Source: a virus. Taken from it: a stretch of DNA of 31,859 nucleotides. Both the position numbers and the translations under genes were made by a program. This document shows positions 243 through 29,814 of the stretch, piece after piece (the stretch's first letter is position 1; each line of letters begins with the position of its first letter). Under the pieces are notes generated by a model. It did no database searches. It worked only from the letters and a program-made list of their open reading frames with translations, and was not told where the DNA came from. The stretch covers positions 1 to 31,859 of IMG/VR virus record IMGVR_UViG_3300031851_000101, one strand, 5' to 3'.

Positions 243-569
243 TTAACAATTCCATTTTCTTAAAGCTAAAGCTTTTCTAGTGGGTTTTCCATTAGGTTTT
301 TTCATTGGTCCTTTTACTCCACTCATTCTTGCACAAAATGATTTTCTTCTTTTAGCTGCTTTACTGCCTGGTTTTAATTTAGAAGGTTTTGTAGTTACTG
401 CAGTTTGTAGTTTAGATCCGGGGTTCTCCCTTCTATATGAGGCAACACCTTTTGCATTTAATCCCCCTTTAGGATCTTTACCTTCTTTTCTAGTCCAGGC
501 TGCAGTAGAACCGCCCTTCTTAAACATACCAGGAACTCTGACACCTTGTGAATTATATATTGGATCCAT
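243..569 (-). CDS. Small Lys/Arg-rich phage protein with PGMF motif
   Basis: This 108-aa protein starts at the ATG at 567-569, giving MDPIYNSQGVRVPGMFKKGG. An upstream in-frame ATG at 621-623 would add 18 residues but overlaps the 52-aa gene next door, so it is rejected. The start lies 1 nt after the stop of that gene, so the two are probably translationally coupled. The sequence is strongly basic and ends in a cluster with KAAKRRKSFCARMSG and ALALRKWNC. I recall similar C-termini in uncharacterised proteins of many marine phages. The positive charge would suit nucleic-acid binding or packaging in the virion, but that is inference. The N-terminal YNxxGVRxPGMF motif recurs in two neighbours (736-1029 and 1029-1295). 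Confidence 0.8.
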   Translation of the reverse strand: MDPIYNSQGVRVPGMFKKGGSTAAWTRKEGKDPKGGLNAKGVASYRRENPGSKLQTAVTTKPSKLKPGSKAAKRRKSFCARMSGVKGPMKKPNGKPTRKALALRKWNC

Positions 570-570
570 C

Positions 571-729
571 TTATTTCTTTTTGTGTAATTTTTGAACATC
601 AAAAGTAGCATATAAAGATGCACCCTTGTGAGCTACAAACTTACCTGTATGTTTCATCAGCTTTGGAGCTTTCTTGCCATCTTTCATCCAGTGATATCCT
701 GCTGGAGCTTTTACTCTTTTACCTGTCAT
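571..729 (-). CDS. 52-aa lysine-rich microprotein
   Basis: A short ORF runs from the ATG at 727-729 to a TAA at 571-573. The protein begins MTGKRVKAPAGYHWMKDGKK and ends in VQKLHKKK, with about a quarter of residues lysine. The reading frame fills the gap between two like genes exactly, with 6 nt to the upstream stop and 1 nt to the downstream start. That tight packing in a cluster of similar basic proteins is the main evidence that it is real. It lacks the PGMF motif of its neighbours. I do not recognise a family; a DNA-binding or virion-internal role is only a guess from charge and context. Confidence 0.65.
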   Translation of the reverse strand: MTGKRVKAPAGYHWMKDGKKAPKLMKHTGKFVAHKGASLYATFDVQKLHKKK

Positions 730-735
730 AACTTT

Positions 736-1029
736 CTATTTATACATCCCAGGAACTTTCATTCCTACATTATTATATACCGGTTCTCCACCATAATTAG
801 CTTTTGAGGTTCTATTCCCCATTCCTACTTTTCTTTTCTTAGCAACTTCTTTTTTCTTATCAACCTGACTCCACGTTTTAGGAGTATTGCCAGAAACCTT
901 TTTGCTAGGTCTACATTTTTTAATTCCTTTAGTTTTAGAACTACCGCATTCTCTACCATTCTGGTCTGTCCATTTCTCTTCAAACCATCGTTTAAGAGCT
1001 GCACCCTTTGCTGTTTTTCTAACTGCCAT
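736..1029 (-). CDS. DUF5872-like basic protein with C-terminal PGMY motif
   Basis: This 97-aa protein has an N-terminal segment with LKRWFEEKWTD, then CGSS, then KKCRPSKKVSGNTPKTW. This combination (KW.D, CG.S, CRPSK.vs..TP) matches my memory of DUF5872, a small domain found in phages and large DNA viruses with no known function. The C-terminus reads VYNNVGMKVPGMYK, the same motif that opens the proteins at 243-569 and 1029-1295, here moved to the other end of the chain. The ATG at 1027-1029 overlaps the stop of the upstream gene by one base (TAATG), which suggests coupled translation. The protein is strongly basic, and the two conserved cysteines could bind metal or form a disulphide. Confidence 0.8.
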   Translation of the reverse strand: MAVRKTAKGAALKRWFEEKWTDQNGRECGSSKTKGIKKCRPSKKVSGNTPKTWSQVDKKKEVAKKRKVGMGNRTSKANYGGEPVYNNVGMKVPGMYK

Positions 1030-1295
1030 TATTTTCCGGCTTTCTTTTTTCTACATTTTGCAATCATACCACTAGCATAAGCGCTAGGAAATACTTTATG
1101 TGCAGCTTTTGCTTTATAGTAGCAAGAATCTTTTTTAGTACTTGATGAACCACCTTTTTTCTTTTTGATTACACCTCTACCTATTAAAACATCTTTTCTA
1201 GTTACTTTACCATCTCCGGATAGATCTGGAAATGACCCTCCTTTTTCAAACATTCCAGGAATTCTTACTCCCTGATTATTATACATTGCTTTCAT
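1029..1295 (-). CDS. Small basic protein with EF-hand-like loop and Cys-rich tail
   Basis: This 88-aa protein opens with MYNNQGVRIPGMFEKGG after a short MKA leader. Residues about 24-36 read DLSGDGKVTRKDV, close to the Ca-binding loop of EF-hand and dockerin repeats (D.S.DGKVT..D). The C-terminal part has CYYKAKAAHKVFPSAYASG followed by MIAKCRKKK. The 'PSAYASG..KCRK' ending is common in uncharacterised proteins of marine phages, from memory. It starts 3 nt after the stop of the connector-like gene at 1299-1970 and overlaps the next gene by one base. A metal-dependent role is possible, but the loop alone does not prove calcium binding. Confidence 0.8.
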   Translation of the reverse strand: MKAMYNNQGVRIPGMFEKGGSFPDLSGDGKVTRKDVLIGRGVIKKKKGGSSSTKKDSCYYKAKAAHKVFPSAYASGMIAKCRKKKAGK

Positions 1296-17045: not shown

Positions 17046-18515
17046 CTAATTATGAAATCTATATTTAGTTGCATTATATAGTGCTTCATGCTCTGTTGCA
17101 TTTAAAGCCTTATGATAAATACCGCAGATATTTAACAGCCCTCTAAACTGACCAGCAGGACCCAGGCCTTGAGTATTAAAGTATCCAATACTAAGAGATC
17201 CATCACTTCCACCTATTCCAATCAAATCTTGAGCACTTGCATTAGCATTTGCGCTACTTATAAATTGACCATTTAAATAAAAATCTACAGTAGCTGGTGC
17301 TGCATTATATGTCATATTAAAAGAACAAGATATCAAAGCCCATTTATTAGTAACACTTGAAAAAAGATCAGACCTATTTGTAGCTGAAACTCCGCTTCCT
17401 CCAGATATCCTCTGCAGTCTAGTTTTATATATAATCTGAGTACCATCCGGTGTTACACCAAATACTCCATTATTATTTCTTCCACCAACATTTCCTATAG
17501 CAGTTGCACATAATCCCCAATTGCCATTTCCTTGATCAGGATCAGCATCCGAATCTAATTTTATCCAAGCAAAAAGACTGTGGGCAAGAAGAGAAAATTT
17601 AGCCTCATCTCCATTTGGATGAACACCTGGTCTAGGTGGCCTTCTAATAGGTGTGACAAATCCACTTGTTAATCCAGACTCAATACCGTTGAATCTAAAA
17701 TTTGAGCCATCGAAGGTAGTCTCATAATATAAAGGATTTTTATTATAGTTAGCATCGCTGCATTTTCTATTTTTATAAACATCAAAATCAACTCCTTCAG
17801 CAGTTTCAACATAATTTGATAGAACCCCTCTTTCCCACTGATGGCCATATATAATTAAACCTGAAGATCCATCACCTTGATATGTTGTATCCCCTGTTGC
17901 ATCACCCATAAAAATACCTAACTCAGTTCTTACTTCAGTAGTTTGAGTACTTTCATCAAAAATAATAGTATACCAAAACCTATACCATCCACCGCCTAGT
18001 GATTCCACACCTTGATCATAATTATCAGAATCACTAGCAATAATTGTTCCCGTGGCAGGATCAACTGTTACAGAACCACTACTTGGATTATTAGCATTAT
18101 TAATTAACAAAGTTCTAGATCCAGAAGAAACCTTTACATGTATAGAATGAGTATACATTTCATATGGACCTCCTTCAATAATCGGACTTATTGGAAAGTC
18201 AAATCTCATTTTATGAGTTCTATCAAAAGTATCTAAAGATTCTGTTATAAGAGTTGTTGGATTTCCGCTACCATCAGGTGCAGGAGTACCTGAAGCTCCT
18301 AAAGTTAAATTAAGAGGTGTTTGTGAGCTGGGGCCATATGAAAAATCAGTTACTGGGGGACAAACATTTGAAAAAGTTCTTGTTCCTGCAAGTAAATTTT
18401 TACCACCTTGTGCTGTAGAATATGCATTAAGGTTAGGAGATCTAGTTATAGGAGCATCTGGATCTAACCAAAAGACTAACTCATCTGTATCTATATTTCT
18501 TCTGACAGGAATCAT
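17046..18515 (-). CDS. Fibre protein with LamG/concanavalin-like lectin domain
   Basis: The C-terminal part of this 489-aa protein (about residues 300-489) has the pattern of a LamG/concanavalin A-like jelly roll: SLFAWIKLDSDADPDQGNG, NKWALISCSFNMTY, VDFYLNGQFISSANANAS, LSIGYFNTQG, GLLNICGIYHKALNATEHEA. Such domains bind sugars. The middle (about 100-240) resembles the carbohydrate-binding beta-sandwich seen in many phage fibres (ESLGGGWYRFWYTIIFDEST). The N-terminus (VFWLDPDAP) probably anchors the protein or starts another lectin-like unit. It starts 1 nt after the collagen-like gene, so the two are likely co-translated and may form one appendage. Its position after the portal gene matches that of head-fibre genes in Crassvirales. 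Confidence 0.75.
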   Translation of the reverse strand: MIPVRRNIDTDELVFWLDPDAPITRSPNLNAYSTAQGGKNLLAGTRTFSNVCPPVTDFSYGPSSQTPLNLTLGASGTPAPDGSGNPTTLITESLDTFDRTHKMRFDFPISPIIEGGPYEMYTHSIHVKVSSGSRTLLINNANNPSSGSVTVDPATGTIIASDSDNYDQGVESLGGGWYRFWYTIIFDESTQTTEVRTELGIFMGDATGDTTYQGDGSSGLIIYGHQWERGVLSNYVETAEGVDFDVYKNRKCSDANYNKNPLYYETTFDGSNFRFNGIESGLTSGFVTPIRRPPRPGVHPNGDEAKFSLLAHSLFAWIKLDSDADPDQGNGNWGLCATAIGNVGGRNNNGVFGVTPDGTQIIYKTRLQRISGGSGVSATNRSDLFSSVTNKWALISCSFNMTYNAAPATVDFYLNGQFISSANANASAQDLIGIGGSDGSLSIGYFNTQGLGPAGQFRGLLNICGIYHKALNATEHEALYNATKYRFHN

Positions 18516-18516
18516 A

Positions 18517-19329
18517 TTAAAGTATATTCATATTTTCTAATGAAGTAATATAAATTTTAGTGCCATCTGAAGTACCTTTCATTAATGTTATATTATTTAT
18601 TACAGGTTGTAAACTATTATTAGTGTACATATTTGTGCCAGTTTGTAAAGTTACAATCTCTGCTGCTGTATTATCAATTATAAAGATATAGTCTCCTACA
18701 CCTAGGTTAGACATTGATATTGTAGTACTTCCTGTAATATCTATAGTAAACGTATTACCTGTAGAAAGATCAATTGTATCTGCAGCTCCTGCAAATGTTA
18801 AAGGTACTATAGGTGTCCATAAACTAGCTCCTGCTGGACCAATTGGACCAATAGGACCTTGTGGACCATCTAAGCCTTGTAGTGCTAAAAAAGTCCAGTT
18901 AGCTGTATCTACTGAAGGATCTGTAGCACTTGGTCCTACTGGATTTGTACATACATAACTAGATCCATCAAAGAATGCTACGTCATCAACTACATATGAA
19001 GAAGCTGCGCTCCATGTACCTGTAAAGTTTAATCCTGCTGCACCTACTGGACCTGCTGGTCCTATAGGGCCTGTTGGACCTGTTGCCCCTGGAGCACCAT
19101 CTGCTCCTGGAGGTCCTGCTGGACCTTGCGGTCCTGCGCCACCTCCACCACCACTAGAACCAATATATTCAGAAAGTTCCTTTATTCTAACTGCTTTTGA
19201 CTCAAGATCTGGAACATTATTTTTACTTATATCTTTTGCTATGTAGATAACATCATCCTCTTTTATAGCCGTTCTCTTTAAAAATAAACGTCTCTGTACT
19301 AAACCTAGTATTTCTTGTAATATCTGCAT
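18517..19329 (-). CDS. Collagen-like fibre protein with ChiC-type sugar-binding module
   Basis: This 270-aa protein has an N-terminal helical anchor (1-58). A Gly-X-Y collagen repeat follows at about residues 66-99 (GPQGPAGPPGADGAPG and on). Next comes a module with TGTWSAASSYVVDDVAFFDG and SYVCTNPVGPS (about 102-148) that matches the ChiC/CBM5_12 carbohydrate-binding pattern. A second short Gly-X-Y stretch lies at 152-168, and a beta-rich C-terminal domain completes it. The collagen parts should form a trimeric rod separating the binding domains. It lies 2 nt after the portal gene and 1 nt before the LamG gene. A head fibre or tail fibre role is inferred from this location. Confidence 0.85.
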   Translation of the reverse strand: MQILQEILGLVQRRLFLKRTAIKEDDVIYIAKDISKNNVPDLESKAVRIKELSEYIGSSGGGGGAGPQGPAGPPGADGAPGATGPTGPIGPAGPVGAAGLNFTGTWSAASSYVVDDVAFFDGSSYVCTNPVGPSATDPSVDTANWTFLALQGLDGPQGPIGPIGPAGASLWTPIVPLTFAGAADTIDLSTGNTFTIDITGSTTISMSNLGVGDYIFIIDNTAAEIVTLQTGTNMYTNNSLQPVINNITLMKGTSDGTKIYITSLENMNIL

Positions 19330-22092: not shown

Positions 22093-24267
22093 TTATTTTA
22101 AATTTTTAAATCCAGATCTTCGTTTTCTACCAGACATAGATTTTTTACTCCCCATATTTCTAAAGGGACTGTACTTTAATTTATACATTTTTTTTGACTT
22201 ATCCAAAGAAGAAGATTCTTCTTTTACCTTTAAGTATCCTCTGTTTGCCTCTTGCACTTTAGCAAATGCAACTAAAGCGGAAAAAGCTACAAGCCTATCA
22301 ACATTTAATCCAGGCTGATATTGCTTCATTTCCGTTAAAAGCATGGGATCAGGTATTCTTTCAATCCCTAAAGTTGAACTTATTATATTACCATCATCAT
22401 CGGTTTCATTATTTATTTCCTCTCTTAAATATTCAATAGCATAAGATATAAGATGTGATTTAAATAATGTACCTGTATTTTTCCAACCATATTCCTGATA
22501 TACATTCTTATTAGATCCTAAGTCTTTTAAAAAAACCATTTGACTTTTGGGAACTAGGTATTTCTGTTTCTTTTTAGAAACCATGTAATTTATAAAGTGA
22601 CTAATATTATTTTCAACCACCGTCCATGCATTATACCATTCGATTATTAAAAGAAGTTGCTCATGCGTTTTGTTTATATCATCATATCTTCCAGACCAAG
22701 CACATACAATCTTATCTCTTTCTGTAAACGTTTCAGGTCCATCCGGAGTTTCTCTTGTAACTTCAATTGCATTTTTCATTACAAATATAGAACACAAAGA
22801 ATCAGATGTTGTAGTTTTACCTTCTGATACAGGGTCAATAGAAGCATAATATGCACCAAAAGGAGGATTTTTTATTGGTCTTTCATATACTACCGGAACA
22901 CCCCTTTTGTCTGACATCTTTTTATCTACCGGAAATGTTGATATAGGTATTTTTGTAGATCTTTTTGCAACAATTCCACTTTGATCTCTACTAAGTTCTA
23001 TATGCTCATAGAAATAATCTTTATCTTCAATTTTTTTAAGTTGCTTAGATATAATACCTTGAGGAAATATTGATTCTTTTCTATAAGCAAATCCTTCTGC
23101 AATATTAGTTGGTTTCTGAGATATTCTTAATTGGTATTGTTCAGGATTTAGTTTATTTTTCCAATCTTCTCTTTCTATCATTATAGCTTCTAAAGCTTCT
23201 TTTACTTTAGAATTACCAAACTGATCTATGTATGGTGGCATTGACCATTGTTCGGGAATAAATAGTCCGGATAAACCTATAGCACCATCCTTGTCTAAAA
23301 GGTTTGTTTCAACCGCATATATATCATTATTTGTAGGATTAAGGATCATATCTTTAAGTGGATTACATTGATCTAAATCACCTACAGATCCAGCAGCAAT
23401 AAACTGACCTGTAGTTATCATACCAGAAGACATTGCAGGACGCAGGTACTCATATGTATCTCCCATTTTTGGAGCAATACCCGCCTCCTCATGAAAGAAG
23501 TAAGTTGTCGGCCCCCCTACTCCAGTTGTTGCATTCTTTTCAAATGATGCACCTTGTATTTTAGATTTTAAACCTTTACTTGTTTTTCTATTACCTACTC
23601 TAACTTCAATCTGTTGCTGCCAAAGTAAAACCTTTTCCGGGTTACTTGGTCTATACCAAGCCGTATGCTCATTAAGAAAATCTTTGTATTCCTCTAAGAA
23701 CTTCCAAGATCCTTTATCATTTATATAATCCTTAAGACTTGCACCAATTTTACATACAGATCCTTCCTCAAACCAATATGTATTTATGAGCTTACCCATA
23801 TGAAAATAAGAAGATGCTATCTGACGTTTCTTAAATATGGCAGCATGCTTATTACTTAATTCTGCTATTAGCTCATATAAAGCCATATGATATTGGGCAT
23901 CCCTCACTTTGGCAAATCCATATGCCTTTTCTTCTTTATCATATATAGGTAAAAAGTTTAACCACATATAATAATCTCTAGTTAAATACCAAATCTTATC
24001 ATTATTCTGATATATTACACCAAGCCTACACTTTGCTTTTTCAGAATCCCAATATTTTCTAAAATCTTTACCTCCATTGGGAGCATTTAGGTATATACCC
24101 TCCTTATTAAATTTTCTAGCTTCCTGATTAAATATTTTAGATGTTTCATCAAATTCATATTTACCAGGTTCCTTAAATAAAGGCAATAAAAAATCTAACC
24201 ACTCTTGATCAGTCTCAAAAGTGGTTGTTGTCCAATCTCCATTTAAATATGTTGGAACTACTCTCAC
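22093..24267 (-). CDS. terL: Terminase large subunit (ATPase and nuclease)
   Basis: This 724-aa protein drives DNA packaging. A degenerate Walker A-like segment KKRQIASSYF lies at about 147-155. Walker B is TTYFFHEEAG at 254-263, with the acidic pair E260/E261, and motif III is TTGQFIAAGSVG at 285-296. The C-terminal nuclease has D478 (YYASIDPVSEGKTTTSD), E552 (TVVENN) and a late aspartate in NVDRLVAFSALVAF. The block PTNIAEGFAYRKESIFPQ (387-404) links the two domains, as in other large terminases. The C-terminal tail is basic. The start overlaps the GroES-like gene by 4 nt, and the portal gene follows by 1 nt. Confidence 0.92.
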   Translation of the reverse strand: MRVVPTYLNGDWTTTTFETDQEWLDFLLPLFKEPGKYEFDETSKIFNQEARKFNKEGIYLNAPNGGKDFRKYWDSEKAKCRLGVIYQNNDKIWYLTRDYYMWLNFLPIYDKEEKAYGFAKVRDAQYHMALYELIAELSNKHAAIFKKRQIASSYFHMGKLINTYWFEEGSVCKIGASLKDYINDKGSWKFLEEYKDFLNEHTAWYRPSNPEKVLLWQQQIEVRVGNRKTSKGLKSKIQGASFEKNATTGVGGPTTYFFHEEAGIAPKMGDTYEYLRPAMSSGMITTGQFIAAGSVGDLDQCNPLKDMILNPTNNDIYAVETNLLDKDGAIGLSGLFIPEQWSMPPYIDQFGNSKVKEALEAIMIEREDWKNKLNPEQYQLRISQKPTNIAEGFAYRKESIFPQGIISKQLKKIEDKDYFYEHIELSRDQSGIVAKRSTKIPISTFPVDKKMSDKRGVPVVYERPIKNPPFGAYYASIDPVSEGKTTTSDSLCSIFVMKNAIEVTRETPDGPETFTERDKIVCAWSGRYDDINKTHEQLLLIIEWYNAWTVVENNISHFINYMVSKKKQKYLVPKSQMVFLKDLGSNKNVYQEYGWKNTGTLFKSHLISYAIEYLREEINNETDDDGNIISSTLGIERIPDPMLLTEMKQYQPGLNVDRLVAFSALVAFAKVQEANRGYLKVKEESSSLDKSKKMYKLKYSPFRNMGSKKSMSGRKRRSGFKNLK

Positions 24268-24527
24268 ATTTCTACTATTGCTAGTATAGTATCAACATTA
24301 ATAAGCTGATGGTTTTTACCTTCATGCTTCATGCTTACTCCTTCTGCATATTCGGCATACTTAATAATATCTCCAGCTTTTACCGATGTTACATCTTGAC
24401 CTACAGCAATTACATCTGCCATATAATCCTTAGCTGTATTCGGATTTATAATGTCAGTTCCTGGAAAAAACTGCTGCGGTTGTCTATCTTTGATTAATAC
24501 TCTTCTACCTATTGGTGTTACTTTCAT
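24264..24527 (-). CDS. GroES-like co-chaperonin
   Basis: The 87-aa sequence reads MKVTPIGRRVLIKDRQP, then a variable loop FFPGTDIINPNTAK, then DVIAVGQDVTSVKAGDIIKY, AEYAEGVSMKHEGK and the ending NVDTILAIVEM. This is the GroES/Cpn10 pattern from start to end: K.xP.xRVxIK, the flexible loop that docks on GroEL, xVIAVG, V+.GDxxxY, and IL.I.E. The length is slightly below the usual 95-97 residues. Phage co-chaperonins (T4 gp31 is the known case) adapt the host GroEL to fold the phage capsid protein. The gene lies between the 172-aa gene and the large terminase, overlapping the latter by 4 nt. The host GroEL would be the partner. Confidence 0.88.
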   Translation of the reverse strand: MKVTPIGRRVLIKDRQPQQFFPGTDIINPNTAKDYMADVIAVGQDVTSVKAGDIIKYAEYAEGVSMKHEGKNHQLINVDTILAIVEM

Positions 24528-26533: not shown

Positions 26534-26886
26534 TCTACACCTAATACCTTATAGTCTAAATATACCGCCCCTTCAGTTTGAAGTTTGATATCTTTAGATA
26601 TACTTACAGTTTTTTTATTTGTACCATTTTTATTTACAAGACCTTTCTTTTCAGCTTTTGTTATAGCATTTCTAGCTGATTGTGGACTTTTAAATATATT
26701 ATTTGTTACAGCAATTTTACAAAAATCCGTAAGCTCATGTTCACCTAGTAAAGCAAGTTCTGATAAACAATTTAAATCTGCATTGCTTATTTGTATATTA
26801 CTAAAAAAACAGTGTGTTAATATTTGATATCTTATAACTTCTTTAGTAGTAGTCCTTACTTTTTTTTCAACTTTATTTACAATCAT
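26530..26886 (-). CDS. Winged helix-turn-helix-like protein
   Basis: This 118-aa protein carries a likely winged helix: LNCLSELALLGEHELTDFCK, then IFKSPQSARNAITKAEKKGL, then VNKNGTNKKTVSISKDIKL. The pattern (helix, recognition helix with SARNAI, then a beta wing VxKxGTNKKTVSI) is typical of RepL/MarR-like DNA-binding domains. In Crassvirales such a gene is often found beside IHF, which supports a replication or transcription role. It lies directly after the endolysin gene (stop/start overlap of one base) and overlaps the IHF-like gene by 4 nt. There is no direct evidence for a target site. Confidence 0.65.
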   Translation of the reverse strand: MIVNKVEKKVRTTTKEVIRYQILTHCFFSNIQISNADLNCLSELALLGEHELTDFCKIAVTNNIFKSPQSARNAITKAEKKGLVNKNGTNKKTVSISKDIKLQTEGAVYLDYKVLGVE

Positions 26887-27809
26887 TACTTTAAACTTAA
26901 TATCATATCAATCATATCAGGATCTGGATAAATATCCATCTTGCCTTTTCTAACATTCGTATGAGATAGTAAACCTTTTATTTTTCCATAATAAGCATCC
27001 TCTTGAAATTCAAATGCTTTTACTGGACCATGCTTCTTTATAAGTTGTTGTAGTCCTATTCTCATGTCTATCCCATCTCTTTCCTGTATGTACTTAAGAA
27101 GCATTTCAGTTTCTTCAACTTGACTAGATGAGTACTTGTGCCAAAATTTTCTACGTCTAAAAGCTTTTCCCAATTCAATAACTTGATCAGGATGCGCTTT
27201 TTTATTAACGTAACTTTTATGCTCATCATCTAAATAACCTATAGAACATATCTCTAGTCCAATAGAGTGCCTATTCATATATCCAGATCCGGTTTTACCT
27301 AAATGCCAACCATATCCGTCTTCTGGAAAAGCTTGCACCATAACTCCATCATACTCATCATCTCCAGTTCTATAGTTTTGACCCCCCAGAACAAATTCAG
27401 TAGCTACACGCCCCCGCTTATCTCTTTCCCAATGATCTATACATCTATAGGGGTTGCATCCTCCTGCTGTATGATGTAAAAACATATACTCATTCTTTCC
27501 AAATTTATTAAGATACTCTTTAGAGCTTAAATAATATTTGTGTATAGTTTGATTATAATTAGTCTTAAAATACTGACTTTCTACATCCGTATCTTCATCA
27601 ATATCTTCTTTAACATATTTAGTCAATAATAATGCAGCCCATGTTTTAGATCCAACAATTCCATCAACACGTAAATTTTTTGAAAGCTGAAGATTCATGA
27701 CAGCCTTTTCTGTCTGAGGTCCAAACTTACCATCAGGAATAATGTTTAATTTTTTTTGCAACCTTACAACATCAGGTCCAGAATCACCTTTTTTTAAAAG
27801 TTTATTCAT
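26886..27809 (-). CDS. Endolysin: peptidoglycan-binding domain plus amidase
   Basis: Residues 4-62 are a peptidoglycan-binding repeat (LKKGDSGPDVVRLQKKLNI, DGKFGPQTEKAV, VDGIVGSKTWAALL). Residues about 105-300 form a type-2 N-acetylmuramoyl-L-alanine amidase (T7 lysozyme/PGRP fold). Zinc-site candidates are H112/H113 in FLHHTAGG, H283 in LSHTNVRKGK and D292 or D296 in KMDIYPDPD. GYGWHLG (166-171) and NRHSIGLEI (179-187) are typical core blocks. The enzyme would cleave the link between stem peptide and glycan at lysis. No signal peptide is seen, so it needs a holin or other route; none is evident close by. It overlaps the coiled-coil gene upstream by one base. Confidence 0.92.
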   Translation of the reverse strand: MNKLLKKGDSGPDVVRLQKKLNIIPDGKFGPQTEKAVMNLQLSKNLRVDGIVGSKTWAALLLTKYVKEDIDEDTDVESQYFKTNYNQTIHKYYLSSKEYLNKFGKNEYMFLHHTAGGCNPYRCIDHWERDKRGRVATEFVLGGQNYRTGDDEYDGVMVQAFPEDGYGWHLGKTGSGYMNRHSIGLEICSIGYLDDEHKSYVNKKAHPDQVIELGKAFRRRKFWHKYSSSQVEETEMLLKYIQERDGIDMRIGLQQLIKKHGPVKAFEFQEDAYYGKIKGLLSHTNVRKGKMDIYPDPDMIDMILSLK

Positions 27810-28111
27810 TACATTCTTTTTAATTTTTTGGCAGATTCTGCACTTTTATTAAAATCTTTTTCAATGGTTTCCTCTTTTACTTTTTCAATTTCTGGCTCCT
27901 GCTCTTCTGATTCCATAGTCTCATAAGCATTTGCCAAAAATGCCTGAGCTTGTAATCTTTTAGCTCTAGATTCTTCAATCTGAGTCATTAGTTCCTCATA
28001 TTGTGCTTGAACCTTTAAGTGAGGTATTTGAGCTTTATAGAACTTTGTAATATCCGCTCTTCGTTTAGCAGCTTCTTCTGTAGTTAGTGTTTTTTGCGCA
28101 TCTTCCGCCAT
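27809..28111 (-). CDS. Coiled-coil phage protein (100 aa)
   Basis: The sequence begins MAEDAQKTLTTEEAAKRRAD, followed by ITKFYKAQIPHLKVQAQYEE and LMTQIEESRAKRLQAQAFLA, a continuous amphipathic helix. The last 35 residues are acidic then basic (EEQEPEIEKVKEETIEK, KKLKRM). No transmembrane segment exists, so it is not a holin by sequence. Proteins with 'RRxxITxFYKxQIxxLK' are familiar to me from Crassvirales-type genomes without a proven role. It is the first gene after a TAnnTTTG promoter (28135-28142), and its last base overlaps the endolysin ATG (TAATG type). Confidence 0.65.
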   Translation of the reverse strand: MAEDAQKTLTTEEAAKRRADITKFYKAQIPHLKVQAQYEELMTQIEESRAKRLQAQAFLANAYETMESEEQEPEIEKVKEETIEKDFNKSAESAKKLKRM

Positions 28112-28134: not shown

Positions 28135-28142
28135 CAAATATA
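28135..28142 (-). promoter_or_regulatory. Bacteroidota-type -7 promoter box (TATATTTG)
   Basis: The minus strand has TATATTTG, an exact TAnnTTTG match, 24 nt before the start of the coiled-coil gene. No good -33 TTG is seen at the usual distance; the upstream sequence is T-rich. Confidence 0.5.
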
Positions 28143-28167: not shown

Positions 28168-29028
28168 TTACGGTCTAATTATTTTTGTAGTACCATTTTC
28201 GGATTTGTTTATAATTAAACCCTTGTAGTATTTATCTACTTCCTGTCCCAGTATGTTGTACGATTTTGAATCTATTCCTCTTTTGCGATAAATAGATATA
28301 GGATACCACGATTGCATGTACCCATCTATGTCAGTTTGTTTCAACCTATAATACACATGATTATATATTACAGAATAATCTATGTATTGATACTCTTGCA
28401 AGCTTGTAGAAAATCCTGCTGCAGGTATCTCATCAATTAAATCCCAGCTTTCTCCATCAATAGATCTAAATAAACTAAAGTAGTTACTGTTATACTCAGA
28501 TGCTGTAGACCAATCTAACTGAACACCGTCATCTAATAACTTTGCTGTAAAGTCTAACTGCTCTACTGGTAAAGGTGTGGGATCATATATGCTTAGGAAT
28601 TCTACATGGGAGTATTTACCGTTTATATTACCAGATCCTCCGGTTGTATTTAAAACAAACGCAAGAGCAATCGTTGTAGTGGGTAAAGTAACTCCATAAA
28701 GCCCATTAAGATTAGATATGTCATAGAAAAACCAACCATTGTCATAAAAATACAATCCAAACACATCACCACTACGGATATCACTCTCTTGGCTCCAGAG
28801 TAACTCAACTGTAGACCATGTGCTGAAATCATACATTGGACTTTGGAATACATAGAACTCACCCGCCAAATAGTTTCCTGTAATATTAAAGCAAAGATCG
28901 CCAGCATGGGAACCAGTATTACCTCCGGGACTAGTCCACTCACCAATACCATCAAAACTATCAAAGGGGTCATCAACTTGTCCATAACTTAAAAACGAAA
29001 TTAAAAATAATACAATTAACCATCTCAT
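28168..29028 (-). CDS. Secreted protein resembling a type IX secretion cargo
   Basis: The start at 29026-29028 gives a signal peptide (MRWLIVLFLISFLSYGQ) with cleavage likely after residue 16 or 17. Residues 20-148 form a jelly-roll-like domain. Residues 156-246 match the beta domain common in Bacteroidota T9SS cargo proteins: LDFTAKLLDDGVQLDWSTAS, EYNSNYFSLFRSIDGESWDL, YIDYSVIYNHVYYRLKQTDI. The end YNILGQEV, then KGLIINKSENGTTKIIRP resembles a type-A T9SS sorting domain (LGxxV ... KGxYIIK ... NGxTxKxxx). The 286-aa protein would go to the periplasm via Sec and possibly to the cell surface through host T9SS. A longer in-frame start exists at 29071-29073 but hides the signal peptide. Its ATG overlaps the upstream stop (TAATG). 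Confidence 0.8.
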   Translation of the reverse strand: MRWLIVLFLISFLSYGQVDDPFDSFDGIGEWTSPGGNTGSHAGDLCFNITGNYLAGEFYVFQSPMYDFSTWSTVELLWSQESDIRSGDVFGLYFYDNGWFFYDISNLNGLYGVTLPTTTIALAFVLNTTGGSGNINGKYSHVEFLSIYDPTPLPVEQLDFTAKLLDDGVQLDWSTASEYNSNYFSLFRSIDGESWDLIDEIPAAGFSTSLQEYQYIDYSVIYNHVYYRLKQTDIDGYMQSWYPISIYRKRGIDSKSYNILGQEVDKYYKGLIINKSENGTTKIIRP

Positions 29029-29345
29029 TATTCTGGATATTTTTCTTCCATTAACTTTTGTAATTTTGCACACCTTAGATAATACTCAGACTCATCCAGA
29101 CTCACGTAATAATCAATAATTGATTTTAATTCATCTTTCTCAATCCCTCTTTGCGGGTCATATGCAAGTAGAGTACTAAATGCAGAACCAGCGCCATCTT
29201 CCAATAGTTCCTCAAATGTTATGTTCTTCATCAAAACCTCAAATGAATTATCATATGCAGTCTTAAGCAGTCTACGTTCTAAAGCCATTCTCTCCGCATC
29301 AGATAGACCTTCAATGTAATCTTCTGGTTCTTCTCTTTCTTCCAT
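29028..29345 (-). CDS. Small acidic helical protein (105 aa)
   Basis: The chosen start at 29343-29345 gives MEEREEPEDYIEGLSDAERM, typical of a hydrophilic cytosolic protein. The frame is open upstream to 29468, but that part is rich in His, Tyr and Trp and includes the promoter-like elements, so the longer version is rejected. The rest is helical and acidic with ALERRLLKTAYDNSFEVLMK and DELKSIIDYYVSLDESEYYL. It is the first minus-strand gene next to the divergent switch and is coupled by TAATG to the T9SS-like gene. I recognise no family. Confidence 0.6.
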   Translation of the reverse strand: MEEREEPEDYIEGLSDAERMALERRLLKTAYDNSFEVLMKNITFEELLEDGAGSAFSTLLAYDPQRGIEKDELKSIIDYYVSLDESEYYLRCAKLQKLMEEKYPE

Positions 29346-29354
29346 GAGTATCTT

Positions 29355-29412
29355 CTTTATATAGTAATATACGTATTTCTGTCCAGCCCCCCAACGTTTC
29401 CTTTCAAAAATA
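29355..29412 (-). promoter_or_regulatory. Candidate promoter region for the leftward unit
   Basis: TATTTTTG on the minus strand (29405-29412) matches TAnnTTTG. Further downstream, GTATATTACTATATAAAG (29355-29372) resembles the promoter-like motif found before other late genes. Either could start the leftward transcript; no clear -33 is visible for the first. The whole intergenic stretch is 29346-29541. Confidence 0.4.
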
Positions 29413-29487
29413 TACCCCCTCCCTAATTTAAAAAATGTGTGTGTTGCATGTGCATAGGGTCCTAGCATTCTGCTCCCCGCCTAATTT

Positions 29488-29541: not shown

Positions 29542-29814
29542 ATGGAAAGACAATTAAACTGGGGTGACTCCCAGCCAATTGCCGACTTCTTACGTGATCT
29601 AGGCGCATCAAAGATGCAGATTATCCGTTCACCAAAAACGGGTAAGCGTTTCTTTGCTGTCCCAGGCACGTCCGTGACTGGCGCTATCAGTGAAAAGGTT
29701 GAAACCTTAACACTGGAGCTTACAGTCACAGAGGTCACAAGCGAAAACGGTGAAACGTTTTTACTTGTTTGTAAGCCATCTGATAACAACGTGCTCGGTG
29801 AGCTATCGTTGTAA
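29542..29814 (+). CDS. Unknown 90-aa protein, first rightward gene
   Basis: The product MERQLNWGDSQPIADFLRDL continues with GASKMQIIRSPKTGKRFFAV, PGTSVTGAIS and a beta-like C-terminal half ending ETFLLVCKPSDNNVLGELSL. It looks like a compact alpha-beta protein without membrane segment. I do not recognise a family. The base composition is noticeably less AT-rich than the late genes (28 of 60 bases are G or C in 29581-29640), which suggests a different origin or RNA-level constraints. Its last 44 bases are also one arm and loop of a long hairpin (29771-29824), and a strong terminator follows 18 nt after the stop, so it appears to be a single-gene transcript. No clear plus-strand promoter is visible. 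Confidence 0.65.
   Translation: MERQLNWGDSQPIADFLRDLGASKMQIIRSPKTGKRFFAVPGTSVTGAISEKVETLTLELTVTEVTSENGETFLLVCKPSDNNVLGELSL

Follow-up and report, generated by a model that had tools for sequence, protein, structure and literature searches.

The stretch of DNA analysed here, called the window throughout, is a 31.9-kb virus record (IMG/VR record IMGVR_UViG_3300031851_000101; 31,859 nucleotides) that encodes a terminase, a portal and a major head protein according to PHROG matches. Among the matches listed, the terminase shows 24–27% identity to those of crAss-like phages over ~87% of its length; it is matched by 131 phage records, many of which are phages of Bacteroides, Flavobacterium and Cellulophaga. 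The window thus carries both the crAss-type terminase and the portal by which a Crassvirales-like phage is recognized. The terminase, portal and head genes, together with the terminase matches, therefore show that P0001, the gene under study, belongs to a genuine phage with a host among the Bacteroidota, and the preliminary description of this DNA was right to call it a phage gene.

P0001 is read on the minus strand (Table 1). The peptides quoted in the preliminary description were all found, and it is the minus strand from 29028 down to 28168 that carries them; a plus-strand reading of the same stretch was ruled out, with many stops and no open frame. The start codon of P0001 lies inside the stop codon of gene A (TAATG), and this overlap is a translational coupling of the two genes. 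Words of the TAnnTTTG type also stand right after the gene in loci L050, L051 and L053, as TATATTTG does here, and are possible candidate promoters for the next gene. No Bacteroidetes TTTG–TAnnTTTG promoter pair was found in the window, TATATTTG itself standing without a −33 partner. The small conserved plus-strand gene, which has relatives in L054–L056 and a similar counterpart in L083, diverges from the late block and marks a divergent promoter region.

Table 1. Features of the window, with positions on the 31,859-nucleotide record.
Feature	Position	Strand	Remarks
P0001 CDS	28168..29028	(-)	286 aa; ATG at 29028; stop 28170..28168
Predicted Sec/SPI signal peptide MRWLIVLFLISFLSYG, residues 1-16	28981..29028	(-)	Expected cut G16^Q17 (Bacteroidetes Q-rule)
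N-terminal jelly-roll domain, residues 17-150	28579..28980	(-)	MAM / cleaved-adhesin / CBM-like fold; best-conserved part
Ig-like domain (LDWSTASEYNSNYF ... VYYRLKQTD), residues 153-248	28285..28572	(-)	Kind that precedes sorting domains of T9SS cargos; strands in the AF2 model
Short CTD-like tail KSYNILGQEVDKYYKGLIINKSENGTTKIIRP, residues 255-286	28171..28266	(-)	32 aa; A3 profile
Upstream gene A	29028..29468	(-)	Overlaps P0001 start; syntenic
Downstream gene C	27809..28111	(-)	Small protein; neighbour kept in relatives
TATATTTG, Bacteroidetes -7 type TAnnTTTG	28135..28142	(-)	Between P0001 and gene C; consensus match only
Endolysin (peptidoglycan-binding + amidase)	26886..27809	(-)	Two genes downstream of P0001; conserved
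Terminase large subunit, crAss-like	22093..24267	(-)	Marks P0001 as phage-borne
Small conserved divergent gene	29542..29814	(+)	
GroES/cpn10-like gene	24264..24527	(-)	Directly before terminase
Collagen-repeat fibre-like protein	18517..19329	(-)	PHROG tail fibre
LamG-like protein	17046..18515	(-)	Follows the collagen-repeat gene
Three small basic proteins	243..623, 736..1029, 1029..1295	(-)	Common motif Y-N-x-x-G-[VM]-[RK]-[VI]-P-G-M-[FY]-[KE]

Homologues of P0001 (55–99% identity) were found on ~14 viral contigs. Eight related viral loci (L006, L044–L047 and L054–L056) share the gene order (A)–P0001–C–amidase–E–HU-like–G–H–I–GroES-like–TerL, with gene A missing or cut off in some of them. Three further observations concern other genes of the window. 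A GroES/cpn10-like neighbour also follows the gene for a protein with the same short C-terminal tail (hereafter the short-tail gene) in about seven other loci, and collagen-repeat and LamG-like genes recur near it in L049 and L052. One of the three small basic proteins has a basic KSFCARMSG...RKWNC end.

Signal peptide, passenger and Ig-like domain

Signal peptidase I substrates of Bacteroidetes carry Gln at position +1 (the Q-rule), as described in PMC5837995 and PMC10653852, and P0001 has Gln directly after its predicted cleavage site. In the alignment, Gln occupies this position in every full-length relative, and the h-region diverges. Signal-peptide calls were made by alignment and by a regular expression, which detected a signal peptide with Gln at +1 in 68 of 73 short-tail viral relatives but in just 21 of the 566 ORFs that neighbour them; of the five relatives missed, two clearly carry a signal peptide. 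The Sec signal peptide proposed in the preliminary description is thus confirmed as a conserved MRWLIVLFLISFLSYG^Q. Export of P0001 is very likely, and these patterns strongly suggest that it proceeds through Sec with cleavage before Q17.

The segment that follows was folded alone because the angle between the domains had made Foldseek matches to the whole P0001 model long and low in TM score. The isolated domain was predicted by AF2 with a pLDDT of 82.6 and a pTM of 0.80, and Foldseek matched it to the MAM domain, CBM11/16/30, reelin repeats and the gingipain cleaved adhesin, all with TM scores of ~0.5. Scans of P0001 against Pfam, NCBIfam and PHROG assigned no family, and a PDB sequence search gave no match; the Pfam matches seen among relatives (FtsK_4TM and F5_F8_type_C) were weak, near or below noise, and were rejected.

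The Ig-like domain agrees with the earlier suggestion of a β domain common in T9SS cargos: in a genome-wide scan, it matched ~27 Bacteroidota loci that carry the same domain just before a C-terminal sorting domain. The cellular loci with a complete end continue into the usual CTD of 75–85 residues, and one locus is cut off.

The short C-terminal tail in phages and cells

The preliminary description had likened the C-terminus of P0001 to a type-A sorting signal, and had named the lack of a TIGR04183 or PF18962 match as the result that would count against it. Neither model matched P0001 or any other part of the window, even in loose searches with E values up to 10 or 1. The TIGR04131 search, likewise proposed beforehand, also came back empty, as no NCBIfam family was found for P0001; for type-B and type-C CTDs, neither TIGR04131 nor another NCBIfam sorting model recognized P0001 or the 27 tails compiled here. 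Canonical CTDs were recognized by the same searches, with the huge-phage locus L014 and G003 as positive controls: TIGR04183 matched one C-terminus among ten related ones, and the genome of Fluviicola sp. XM-24bin1 (G003) yielded at least 150 PF18962 cargos. Each of the four huge phage records with the Ig-like domain (LR745206, LR756500, LR756502 and LR756504; W01–W04; 462–642 kb) likewise has at least one canonical type-A CTD over the TIGR04183 cut-off. What stands of the earlier claim is a module that resembles a sorting signal, whereas its assignment to the type-A domain by the standard models does not hold.

Like the type-A CTD, the short tail occupies the C-terminal position after the same Ig-like domain. 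Its glycine and terminal Lys/Ile pattern looks similar to motifs D and E, with weak statistical backing and a variable end in the window's own clade. The two also differ: type-A CTDs span ~75–85 residues from motifs A/B (PNP) to E, whereas the tail of P0001, with only ~32, is ~50 residues shorter, has no PNP (motif A/B) segment and falls outside the models. An hhalign comparison with 21 canonical CTDs was weak (probability 8.6%), with the G-x-x-V region aligned, and against the CTD profile the tails outscored shuffled versions of themselves with p ~1e-7, a value to be read in light of the tail sequences not being independent. In HBP35, the terminal 22 residues of the CTD, which include motifs D and E, are enough for GFP to be secreted (PMC10202324).

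Searching IMG/VR with the Ig-plus-tail alignment returned 321 places. Nearly all of the best 80 of these 321, which were read individually, show a signal peptide, a variable passenger, the Ig-like domain and the short tail at the stop codon, and in 65 of the 80 the stop is reached 26–28 residues after the G of the GQEV-like motif. The tail profile, A3, was built from 27 sequences with P0001 as row 1; the module pattern x-N-x-x-G-Q-E-V ... G-x-[VI]-[IF] ... DG ... K followed by the stop fits P0001, which is partly circular given its place in A3, and the near-identical homologue in L044 scores 3.6e-16. The profile has no meaningful match in Pfam, NCBIfam or PHROG, and a literature search returned no account of the short tail. 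When 18 virus records were searched with A3, 15 records of 41 kb to 635 kb matched with exactly one copy each; the other three, all huge phages, have canonical or divergent tails. No isolate phage with the module was found in INPHARED, where only four unannotated huge phage records match. In the viral locus L131 and in L014 (huge phage LR756500), as in the genome loci above, a canonical CTD comes after this Ig-like domain, and the two endings are therefore interchangeable at this position. With unrelated passengers, a place at the stop codon and this interchangeability, the tail, as far as the sequences tell, behaves like a sorting signal. Other exported phage proteins with short CTD-like ends, e.g. 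...IYDMSGRKVNLDWAPNGMYLVVEDGMVVRKIWK, are encoded in L124 and L128 (genes −2/−1) and in L129 (+1 and +2), and these ends look intermediate between the canonical CTD and the short tail.

The tail is also found in cells. Within the order to which Fluviicola sp. XM-24bin1 (locus L020) belongs, an order-level group as defined by the search tool, 68 of 150 genomes carry it at E ≤ 1e-4, with up to six per genome; at 1e-6 the number is ~47 of the 150. Among 396 Bacteroidota drawn from across the phylum, G003 alone passes 1e-6, and 305 of the 396 have SprA. Co-occurrence with the T9SS was set aside as a discriminating test; it is uninformative within the Fluviicola order because 147 of the 150 genomes have SprA. 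Among the 51 distinct cellular proteins read, 50 have the tail at the exact C-terminus and 18 lack the Ig-domain signature; from these 18 and from the distribution, it follows that the tail travels without the Ig-like domain and characterizes a single order-level group. These unnamed proteins, found here, share with P0001 the signal peptide type, the Ig-like domain, the tail and its C-terminal position; they differ in being chromosomal, several per genome, joined to other passengers and in some cases without the Ig-like domain. We infer that members of this group are hosts of the short-tail phages, and a tail so nearly confined to one order could serve as a host predictor for orphan phages.

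These cellular proteins bear on whether P0001 is instead a virion component, i.e. a protein with an Ig-like domain that decorates the particle or forms a fibre and has an N-terminus merely reminiscent of a signal peptide. P0001 does lie in a late structural block, and Ig-like domains are common on virions according to a review as cited in PMC6949934. Moreover, in ~25 T4-like loci the short-tail gene is found at the gene for the major head protein or in its vicinity, and in L049, L052 and L060 it lies near collagen-like and LamG-like fibre genes; the late block is the feature common to all of these genomic settings. Nevertheless, we consider a virion component unlikely, since ordinary chromosomal proteins show the same build of signal peptide, passenger, Ig-like domain and tail, the signal peptide with Gln at +1 is kept while the core sequence diverges, and capsids assemble in the cytoplasm, which is closed to a Sec-exported protein.

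The main doubt about the tail as a signal comes from the window's own clade, in which the last ~15 residues vary. The K(K)I(I)K/R end is missing from several relatives, and the proteins of L050 and L051 terminate immediately behind GQE(V/I)K; a frameshift behind these truncated tails was ruled out, as no KGL... continuation was found in another frame. Such variation is odd for an essential signal, and in relatives of the L050/L051 type the signal may have relaxed or the Ig-like domain may be sufficient. It would also suit a periplasmic or outer-membrane lysis helper, either spanin-like or an envelope-loosening partner of the nearby amidase, in which the tail is a relic: the ending is degenerate in part of the wider clade, and the place two genes upstream of the endolysin is conserved, albeit in one phage lineage. 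However, L054–L056 combine the same N-domain with an intact tail, no transmembrane or lipoprotein feature was seen, and in unrelated short-tail phages the identified recurrent neighbours, the major head protein among them, include no lysis family. A lysis role is accordingly improbable.

Evolution of the gene

The P0001 gene is under purifying selection: dN/dS is ~0.1–0.5, and below 0.6 wherever computable outside the signal-peptide segment, a tiny stretch in which it reaches 0.87. Because of this selection, the synteny and the occurrence of the tail at the exact C-termini of scores of unrelated proteins, the features of P0001 go beyond chance.

The preliminary description had raised the possibility of capture from the host, and a recent capture is not upheld. 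In the tree of the Ig-like domain and tail, the clade that holds the window comprises 13 rows, all from phages (support 100/99), and the split between phage and cell needs four changes (4–6 in bootstraps) as compared with 24.6 in shuffles; the gene has therefore long been resident in phages. Recent capture was rejected on this tree and on the absence of a cellular relative of the N-domain in one genome-contig scan. The only close match in that scan was L015 (CAKZOX010000148.1), a contig in a Campylobacteraceae MAG that is syntenic with this phage lineage and was probably mis-binned.

Between the window and L002, synonymous divergence is 0.26 in the N-domain and 0.64 in the Ig-like domain, and is saturated in the tail. 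Being lower in the N-domain than in the Ig-like domain and tail of the same pairs, it indicates that the N-domain, i.e. the passenger, was exchanged by recombination. Such exchange, the varied passengers of the wider family and the MAM/CBM/cleaved-adhesin-like fold would all be in keeping with an exported surface protein that serves the general fitness of the infected cell (as an adhesin, or in aggregation or glycan binding) and not exclusion. The single copy in each of 15 phage records and the late block suggest a specific end-of-infection role, and we regard general fitness value as somewhat unlikely.

Proposed role and relation to known systems

We favour the view, with a probability of about 0.58, that P0001 is a surface protein that leaves the cell by means of a short signal of the T9SS type; dependence on the T9SS is in itself fairly probable. 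P0001 would be a late protein that ends up in the envelope of its Bacteroidota host during infection rather than in virions. Sequence and synteny suggest that it is made from the late block with the endolysin, packaging and head genes. It would then be exported by Sec and cut before Q17 by signal peptidase I, as the Q-rule strongly implies. The Ig-like stalk and the short tail may together form a compact T9SS-type signal, equivalent to motifs D and E of type A, with which the host T9SS would take P0001 across the outer membrane. Once displayed or released, the jelly-roll, as an adhesin or carbohydrate-binding fold, could bind a surface glycan or protein. More tentatively, the tail may represent a previously undescribed signal of ~30 residues for the type IX route (or a parallel outer-membrane route), limited to one order-level Bacteroidota group and its phages, each phage keeping one such late surface protein.

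Llp of phage T5, a lipoprotein of a phage of Gammaproteobacteria, confers surface exclusion by a late block of the receptor. By analogy, the likeliest benefit of P0001 would be that the phage receptor is masked or altered late, so that neither re-infection nor re-adsorption of progeny to debris occurs. The two proteins are likened in this proposed late block from the cell surface and have no sequence relation, and receptor masking or superinfection exclusion by P0001 is a doubtful proposal at present.

If the favoured reading is true, many Bacteroidota phages (crAss-like, T4-like and huge) routinely remodel the exterior of the infected cell via the host secretion machine. The short tail would provide a handle on the minimal T9SS signal, which is a longstanding question, and would allow the annotation of cargos missed by present models. 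What is new here is the tail class, together with the findings that many phages have exactly one copy of it and that among bacteria it is almost restricted to a single order.

The idea of a phage-encoded T9SS cargo as such is older. It was put forward for Cryophage by Bellas et al. (2020; PMC7468147), who suggested that the phage hijacks the host system and counted superinfection exclusion among the possible purposes. The Cryophage cargos and P0001 are both phage products with a T9SS-type C-terminal signal, but the former carry recognized type-A sorting domains on enzymes and PA14 proteins, whereas P0001 joins a jelly-roll passenger to a short tail outside the models. T9SS sorting domains have also been described in ORFs beside crAss-BACON genes (de Jonge et al., 2019; PMC6949934). 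Like P0001, these ORFs belong to crAss-like phages and lie near structural genes; unlike P0001, they combine BACON repeats with a recognized sorting domain rather than an Ig-like domain with a short tail.
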